Source of the DNA: an uncultured Pelagibacteraceae bacterium
GTDB lineage: Bacteria > Pseudomonadota > Alphaproteobacteria > Pelagibacterales > Pelagibacteraceae
Length of the DNA stretch: 64,000 nt
Assembly (NCBI GenBank): GCA_902607585.1
Contig: CACLKP010000001.1
Span: 1-64,000, forward strand
Reading direction: 5' to 3'
This document shows positions 1,098-33,161 of this stretch, one piece after another; the first letter of the stretch is position 1; the number at the start of each line of letters is the position of its first letter. The notes under the pieces are model-generated. The model searched no databases and was not told the DNA's origin. It saw nothing but the letters and a program-made list of their open reading frames with translations. A program made the position numbers and the translations under genes.

Positions 1098-1313
1098 ATG
1101 AAAATGCTTGCAGGATTTACGGGTACAGTAAGAAGCTTAACCCATGTGGTAATTGCACTACTTGGATTAGGTATCGTTGTATCACTTCTTGGTGGAAACG
1201 TTCCATTCGTAAGTGGCATTGCTGACAATATTGTTGGTTTAGTTCAGTCACTAGGTGATGCAGGAATAGTCGGCTTAATAGCTGCTATTATTATATTAGG
1301 TTTTTACAAATAG
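1098..1313 (+). CDS. Small hydrophobic membrane protein, first of tandem paralogs
   Basis: About 71 aa from ATG at 1098 (SD GGGAGGTG upstream; track GTG start is 9 nt earlier). Two hydrophobic segments; LGDAGIVGLI motif. Confidence 0.7.
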   Translation: MKMLAGFTGTVRSLTHVVIALLGLGIVVSLLGGNVPFVSGIADNIVGLVQSLGDAGIVGLIAAIIILGFYK

Positions 1314-1324
1314 ATTTTTTAATC

Positions 1325-1357
1325 CGTTAGTTTTTCCCTCTTAATAATTAACTAACG
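1325..1357 (+). repeat. Inverted repeat CGTTAGTT...AACTAACG in intergenic region
   Basis: 8-bp arms at 1325-1332 and 1350-1357, 17-nt loop. Confidence 0.5.
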
Positions 1358-1370
1358 TTTAAAAACCTAG

Positions 1371-1403
1371 CTACCCTGGCCTAAGACTTTGAGGCCAGGG
1401 TAG
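1371..1403 (+). promoter_or_regulatory. Strong intercistronic hairpin (12-bp perfect stem)
   Basis: CTACCCTGGCCT-aagactttg-AGGCCAGGGTAG; perfect 12-bp GC-rich stem in AT-rich DNA. No adequate U tract follows. Confidence 0.75.
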
Positions 1404-1430
1404 AAAGTTTAAATAAGTGAAAGGAAATAT

Positions 1431-1667
1431 ATGAAGGCATGGATTATAACGATTAGAAACTATTTAAGACAGTTTATGGAGCTTGGTGTCCTTTTGTTAG
1501 GTGTTTCTGTTATTGCTGAAATACTGTTTGGACCAAATGTTGCTTTTTTAGGTTCACAAGTAACAGCAAATTTAATCACGTTGTTAAATAGCCTAGGAGA
1601 TCAAGGTATAGCTGCCTTAATAATTGTCTTTGCGGTAATAATTACGTATCGAAAGCTATTAAAATAG
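1431..1667 (+). CDS. Small hydrophobic membrane protein, second of tandem paralogs
   Basis: 78 aa; aligns to the 1098-1313 product (LLG..VI/V..LLGGNV.F ... NLI/IVGL..SLGD.GI.ALI). Confidence 0.7.
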   Translation: MKAWIITIRNYLRQFMELGVLLLGVSVIAEILFGPNVAFLGSQVTANLITLLNSLGDQGIAALIIVFAVIITYRKLLK

Positions 1668-2187: not shown

Positions 2188-3015
2188 ATGGATGTAAAAT
2201 TACTTTCTGGAGCTTTAGGAGCTGAAATAAGTGGTATAGATTTAAAGGATACTTCTATAAAAAATTTTGAAAAAATTAATAAGTTACTTTTAGAACATAA
2301 GGTTATTTTTTTTAGGAACCAAAATATTACTGCAGAAGAGCAGTTAGCGCTAGGAAAACATTTTGGACCACTTGAAAAACACGTTTATGTAAAAGGTCGA
2401 GACGAGTATCCAGAAATTGTTAGAATTATTAAAAAACCAAATGAAAAAAATCAATGGGGTGAAAATTGGCACAGCGATGTTAGCTATAATGTTAAACCCA
2501 CAAAAGCGGTAATCTTAAGATCTATTAAAATACCTCCTGTAGGTGGTGATACAATGTTTGCAAATATGGAACTTGCTTGGGAAACGCTAGACAAAAATCT
2601 TAAGGAAAAAATTAAAGATAAGAAAGCTGTTCATAGTTCTTTAGGTGGAGCATTTTTTACAGATGACTATGAAGCAATGGAAAGTAACGGAAATCATACT
2701 GAGTACACAAACGAACATCCAATTGTTCGAACTCACCCAGAAACAGAAAAAAAAATATTGTTTGTGAATTGGACTTATACCAAAAAAATAATTGGTTTGG
2801 AAAAAAAAGAGAGTGATGAAATTTTAGAAAAAATATTTGAACATCAAGCAAGATTAGATTTTACTTGTCGTTTTAGATGGACGGAAAATGCAGTTGCAAT
2901 ATGGGACAACAGAAGTGTGCAGCATTATGCTATATCAGATTTTTTTCCAGGAAGAGGTCTGGGCCACGAAAGAATAATGGACAGAATAGCCATTGAAGGT
3001 GATCGACCTAATTAA
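2188..3015 (+). CDS. TauD/TfdA family 2-oxoglutarate/Fe(II) dioxygenase
   Basis: HSD...WDNRSVQHYA...R facial-triad context; N-term GALGAEISGIDL. Confidence 0.9.
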   Translation: MDVKLLSGALGAEISGIDLKDTSIKNFEKINKLLLEHKVIFFRNQNITAEEQLALGKHFGPLEKHVYVKGRDEYPEIVRIIKKPNEKNQWGENWHSDVSYNVKPTKAVILRSIKIPPVGGDTMFANMELAWETLDKNLKEKIKDKKAVHSSLGGAFFTDDYEAMESNGNHTEYTNEHPIVRTHPETEKKILFVNWTYTKKIIGLEKKESDEILEKIFEHQARLDFTCRFRWTENAVAIWDNRSVQHYAISDFFPGRGLGHERIMDRIAIEGDRPN

Positions 3016-33081: not shown

Positions 33082-33082
33082 T

Positions 33083-33124
33083 TTCTCCTTTTTAGTGCTT
33101 TGACAATATGTCAGGTGCACAATT
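33083..33124 (-). promoter_or_regulatory. SAM-V-like riboswitch overlapping the bhmT ribosome binding site
   Basis: Minus strand ..ttGUGCACCUGACAUAUUGUCAAAGCACUAAAAAGGAGaaaAUG: P1 GUGC/GCAC, UAUUG-CAA core, CUAAAAAGG containing the SD; CCU can pair with AGG. Confidence 0.65.
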
Positions 33125-33161
33125 TGGTTAAATACCTGGTTTTTAATTGAAATAAATTTTC

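Follow-up and report, generated by a model that had tools for sequence, protein, structure and literature searches.

Here, we present a family of small proteins, predicted to be two-helix hairpins of the inner membrane, that reaches beyond SAR11 (Pelagibacteraceae) into Crocinitomicaceae, one other alphaproteobacterium, and at least 111 marine viral contigs. We regard both the existence of this family and its spread as near certain. Its two members in the window (the whole 64,000-nucleotide stretch of Pelagibacteraceae DNA that was analyzed), P1 and P2, are best read as an operon for small inner-membrane proteins that arose by an ancient duplication. Relatives in phages and Bacteroidota, which were invisible to the preliminary description made from the window alone, change the picture most. 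The family is missing from Pfam, PHROGs, and NCBIfam, and also from a cultured-phage collection at the sensitivity used, yet its carriers include SAR11, marine Bacteroidota, and more than 100 marine viral contigs. A membrane protein carried on both sides, by hosts and by viruses, can show where the cell envelope is contested or taken over.

The genes and RNA elements of the locus, with the neighboring genes in the window, are as follows.

144 to 461: CutA
491 to 832: SMR transporter
1037 to 1060, + strand: hairpin in the 5′ leader of P1, GCCACTGA / TCGGTGGC, with a loop that ends in TGA; identified by covariation
1061 to 1076, + strand: second, small leader hairpin, ACTTGTTTAAACAAGT; identified by alignment, mainly within the window's genus
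1084 to 1091, + strand: Shine-Dalgarno sequence of P1, GGGAGGTG, read in the sequence; a G-rich Shine-Dalgarno is retained in nearly all loci
1098 to 1313, + strand: P1, 71 amino acids, predicted two-helix inner-membrane protein
1325 to 1357, + strand: intergenic hairpin 1, stem CGTTAGT / ACTAACG, with the C-rich loop CCCTC at 1336 to 1340
1371 to 1403, + strand: intergenic hairpin 2, 11-bp GC-rich stem CTACCCTGGCC / GGCCAGGGTAG, with no T run after it
1431 to 1667, + strand: P2, 78 amino acids, paralogue of P1
1682 to 2092: GFA-family enzyme
2188 to 3015: TauD-type dioxygenase

The open reading frame at 1098 to 1313 encodes MKMLAGFTGTVRSLTHVVIALLGLGIVVSLLGGNVPFVSGIADNIVGLVQSLGDAGIVGLIAAIIILGFYK; an alternative in-frame GTG start at 1089 would add three amino acids. 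The preliminary description had proposed tandem paralogues, the first with a strong Shine-Dalgarno, and both points hold: GGGAGGTG lies 6 nt upstream of the P1 ATG at 1098, and the two products are identical at 21 of 63 positions (33%; E = 2e-8 in a single BLASTP comparison), with the family profile retrieving P1 and P2 at E = 2e-29 and 2e-28. No third family copy was found in the source genome, which is 55% complete. Elsewhere in the window, the sole Rfam match is a SAM-V riboswitch aptamer (33082 to 33146, − strand; 59.5 bits).

Matches were found in 32 of 197 SAR11 family-level genomes, from 8 of 14 genera. Presence in SAR11 is thus patchy, but many of these genomes are incomplete. We retrieved 66 Pelagibacteraceae-type loci from genome contigs, two of which carry the deposited taxon labels “Proteobacteria bacterium” (L135) and “Rhodospirillaceae” (L144). 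Wherever the contig is long enough (62 loci), P2 comes directly after P1; in the remaining four loci, the contig ends no more than about 200 nt from P1. Flanking genes vary by subgroup, with SMR and either TauD or GFA in the window's genus and different genes elsewhere. Adjacency across such differing neighborhoods indicates a two-gene unit that is retained while its surroundings change. A dN/dS near 1 had been named as evidence against the pair; instead, median values are 0.137 for P1 (1551 pairs) and 0.149 for P2 (1309 pairs), indicating purifying selection.

In a tree of the family, all P2 sequences group in a single clade (support 100), and a split with support 93 sets P1 apart from everything else, which suggests that the duplication is older than the spread of the pair in SAR11, although the deeper branching order of proteins so short is poorly supported. 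One genome (G008) has lost P1 and kept P2 intact. At its locus (L171, 433 to 1083 and 1190 to 1426), the end of an EamA-like transporter gene is fused to the last P1 codons (AIIILGFYK), with P2 behind and an intergenic hairpin still present beside it. Assembly of P1 with P2 is thus not obligatory in this genome.

In every subgroup of the family, the two helices are hydrophobic, the termini basic, and the loop nearly devoid of lysine and arginine. An AlphaFold2 (AF2) monomer model of P1, built with 74 relatives, has helices at residues 2 to 30, 39 to 51, and 54 to 70 (mean pLDDT 81; pTM 0.51). Residues 39 to 51 form an amphipathic helix with the conserved pattern V..N...LV.SLGD.G, and conservation is very high in the loop and second helix. 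From the charge and hydropathy pattern and these helices, we predict an inner-membrane hairpin with both termini in the cytoplasm (N-in/C-in) and a periplasmic turn. The same features support the membrane-protein pair of the preliminary description.

Neither P1 nor P2 has a match in Pfam, PHROGs, or NCBIfam, and a search of PDB chains with the family profile found none, so the statement that the pair has no recognized family stands for these collections, where we found no placement in a characterized family. Scans of 74 diverse members against Pfam and PHROGs gave only weak, scattered matches. DUF6366 (PF19893), for example, matched 17 of the 74 weakly (best E = 0.0031) and none of ten members on rescanning. 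A Foldseek search with the P1 model returned chance matches only and no meaningful structural relative.

Profile-guided scans beyond SAR11 found 44 viral contigs at first and then at least 111, together with two Crocinitomicaceae contigs and one other alphaproteobacterial contig. A single chromosomal copy is present in 23 of 101 Crocinitomicaceae genomes, some of whose MAG contigs might in principle be misbinned. At one such locus (L148), however, the neighbors are selU, selD, Maf, and guaA, which we take, from our reading of their translations, to be housekeeping genes; at another (L150), they were read as glmM, actP, and thiC. These relatives are also constrained, with dN/dS of 0.16 among phage copies and 0.13 to 0.15 among Crocinitomicaceae. 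The gene after the P-family gene in Crocinitomicaceae (L244 to L255) encodes a small, conserved protein that is anchored at its N-terminus and carries a PKD-like domain; several loci also have a TonB-receptor gene upstream. Another small membrane protein, of about 130 amino acids and without a Pfam family, is common to Crocinitomicaceae chromosomes and a phage contig and each time lies no more than a few kilobases from the P-family gene (L148, 4825 to 5223; L149, 942 to 1340; L051, 9057 to 9449).

Among 50,697 phage records, tblastn with five family members found nothing real, although hydrophobic peptides may be masked by the low-complexity filter. We also searched two T4-like phages, Flavobacterium phage immuto and Microcystis phage Mel-JY01, with a profile and found no family member; two small genes next to gp21 that we translated from these records are unrelated. 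In some T4-like viral contigs, the P-family gene lies between a gp21-type protease gene and a scaffold-like gene; in other viral contigs, it precedes baseplate-type genes.

In 56 of 87 viral loci (about 83 distinct contigs, as four were sampled twice, and many are close relatives), the P-family gene touches a gene that we call d1, in several neighborhoods and in both orders. The d1 protein has a signal peptide, a C-terminal phenylalanine, and nine strands in an AF2 model (mean pLDDT 70). In Foldseek, it matches small barrels best, among them designed barrels, OmpA, OmpX, and Ail (E = 0.003 to 0.03), and there is a weak match to OMP_b-brl; matches at this level make the fold class likely and name no family. 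Thus, d1 is likely to be a secreted, small outer-membrane beta-barrel. A tblastn search of the 50,697 phage records with one barrel protein found nothing real, and no barrel gene was recognized beside the pair in SAR11 or alphaproteobacterial loci. The barrel is a concrete, testable partner for the P-family protein in phages.

We tentatively favor a reading in which the hairpin oligomerizes and has a non-lytic, accessory effect on the envelope; P1 and P2 would then be unequal partners. Each protein would run from a basic cytoplasmic N-terminus through the first membrane helix to a periplasmic, glycine-rich turn, and then through the conserved amphipathic helix in that turn and the second membrane helix to a basic cytoplasmic end. 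Such hairpins may pack as homo- or hetero-oligomers within the inner membrane and, from the periplasmic side, could alter its permeability or entry properties, which would make the family an envelope-modifying accessory and not a lytic protein. In phages, the P-family protein would work with the outer-membrane beta-barrel encoded next to it, one part per membrane, perhaps in superinfection exclusion or in protection of the infected envelope. The P1/P2 duplication of SAR11 would be a two-subunit version.

This envelope-modifying role is favored by the adjacency of the barrel in phages and by the envelope-related neighbors in Crocinitomicaceae (the TonB receptor and the anchored PKD protein). 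A hairpin that is useful to both cells and phages, and that acts at the envelope, fits the facts. It is possible, if doubtful, that marine phages carry a previously undescribed two-membrane envelope module for envelope protection or superinfection exclusion, composed of an outer-membrane beta-barrel and an inner-membrane hairpin, whose inner half also occurs as a duplicated operon in SAR11 and a single gene in Bacteroidota.

The main rival, on grounds of size and topology, is a holin- or pinholin-like pore, a reading that we consider rather unlikely. The family would then be a class II holin of marine phages, with domesticated copies in SAR11 and Crocinitomicaceae that permeabilize the inner membrane on cue. 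In size, topology, and basic C-terminus, it agrees with class II holins (PMC9636201), and many phage copies lie in late structural blocks; in one lineage, the distance to an SLT hydrolase gene is three to four genes. In another lineage, a 163-kb viral contig (L198, 1965 to 5228) carries, in order, an amidase endolysin, a PF05105 holin, a four-helix protein, d1, and the P-family gene. This cassette, in which d1 and the P-family gene come just after the endolysin and holin genes, also suits a role in lysis and weakens the envelope-accessory reading. However, the cassette encodes a separate holin, whose PF05105 match is above its cutoff. The related phage immuto has holin and hydrolase genes and lacks the family, which indicates that the P-family gene is accessory to lysis there. 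Furthermore, no Pfam or PHROGs holin model matches any of the 74 members, and the chromosomal forms that are single copies are under strong purifying selection with no hydrolase recognized alongside. Most other viral loci are not beside lysis genes, and SAR11 loci show none.

We regard it as distinctly unlikely that the family is a small subunit with a regulatory or assembly role in a larger transporter or respiratory complex of the inner membrane, carried by phages to keep that complex working. The very high conservation of the loop and second helix would suit such a subunit, and the hairpins in the P1 leader and intergenic region are consistent with controlled expression. Phages are also known to carry host-type genes. 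However, from one SAR11 neighborhood to the next, no single transporter or respiratory gene stays with the pair, and the partner gene in phages encodes an outer-membrane barrel and not an inner-membrane transporter.

The long, structured intergenic DNA noted in the preliminary description is real: the 117-nt gap between P1 and P2 holds two covarying hairpins, and a further one lies in the leader (1037 to 1060). Across 44 loci, 84.9% of cells in the leader hairpin are paired, seven of its eight pairs show two-sided changes, and there are 54 two-sided cells compared with 16.8 in shuffles. For the gap hairpins (18 loci), 97.6% of cells are paired, 12 of 16 pairs show two-sided changes, and none of 500 shuffles scored as high; hairpin 2 alone has 98.5% of cells paired and two-sided changes in 9 of 11 pairs. 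Kinship inflates such covariation counts, but sliding the partner by one to three columns, a control that retains kinship, destroys the gap-hairpin signal. Across 41 genomes, the confident matches of a covariance model of the gap element all lie between P1 and P2, and we therefore rejected a dispersed repeat. The lack of a T run after hairpin 2 suggests a hairpin that stabilizes mRNA or sets a ratio, more than a terminator. Control of the P1:P2 ratio, probably by the intergenic hairpins, is suggested by the presence of covarying RNA hairpins in so compact a genome.

Could RNA be the main product, with the 3′ region of P1 in the role of a regulatory RNA whose loop resembles an anti-Shine-Dalgarno, as in CcaF1-type loci? 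Covariation and the confinement of the element to the P1-P2 gap agree with this, as does CCCTC or a variant in the hairpin 1 loop at 46 of 62 loci compared with 3.9 in shuffles, although related loci are not independent. Nevertheless, we give the idea little credence. The motif is absent from the other 16 loci, and complementarity between the loop and P1's own Shine-Dalgarno is hardly above the shuffled level (5.45 versus 4.92 nt). We thus rejected a specific pairing between the two and call the loop generic C-rich. A search of Rfam for the pair's RNA found no match, a lax threshold adding only chance matches. Conservation of the protein extends to phages and Bacteroidota, in which we did not see the gap RNA.

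A two-peptide bacteriocin, a form of the bacteriocin-like option in the preliminary description, would account for two small hydrophobic neighbors but is extremely improbable, since no exporter, immunity, or processing gene lies beside the pair (neighbors are SMR, CutA, GFA, TauD, and varied others; at other loci, flanking genes were sized and some named), no family matches, dN/dS is about 0.14 with a near-invariant loop, and the relatives are single copies inside phage genomes.

Several known systems resemble parts of this arrangement. Class II holins have two helices, an N-in/C-in topology, and a basic C-terminus (PMC9636201). The P family resembles those of the S21 type in its length of about 70 amino acids, two helices, predicted N-in/C-in topology, basic C-terminus, and presence in phages. 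It differs in that it has no sequence match to any holin family, has a separate holin encoded beside it in one lineage, occurs as a conserved chromosomal paralogue pair in hosts, and has a periplasmic loop that is among its most conserved parts.

The 3′ RNAs of CcaF1/DUF1127 loci have C-rich loops. These small-ORF loci of alphaproteobacteria yield UTR-derived small RNAs (PMC8625941, PMC10253847). P1 is likewise a small ORF followed by a structured 3′ RNA with a C-rich loop. However, P1 is a predicted membrane hairpin and not a DUF1127 protein, the downstream gene is its paralogue, and the P1-P2 RNA is defined here by its structure and covariation.

The Imm-type superinfection immunity protein of T4 is a small, accessory, two-helix inner-membrane protein of T4-like phages. 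P-family proteins are also small, accessory, and predicted to span the inner membrane with two helices, and they too occur in T4-like phages. In contrast to Imm, they have chromosomal copies in SAR11 and Bacteroidota and an adjoining outer-membrane barrel gene, and none of the 74 members matches an Imm-type profile in the Pfam and PHROGs scans.

Spanins are encoded by adjacent genes with one protein per membrane: a coiled-coil i-spanin and a lipoprotein o-spanin. The P-family and d1 genes are similarly side by side, probably with one product per membrane, and lie in a lysis neighborhood in one lineage. Unlike an i-spanin, however, the P-family protein is predicted to be a two-helix hairpin with no periplasmic domain, and its partner is likely to be a beta-barrel.
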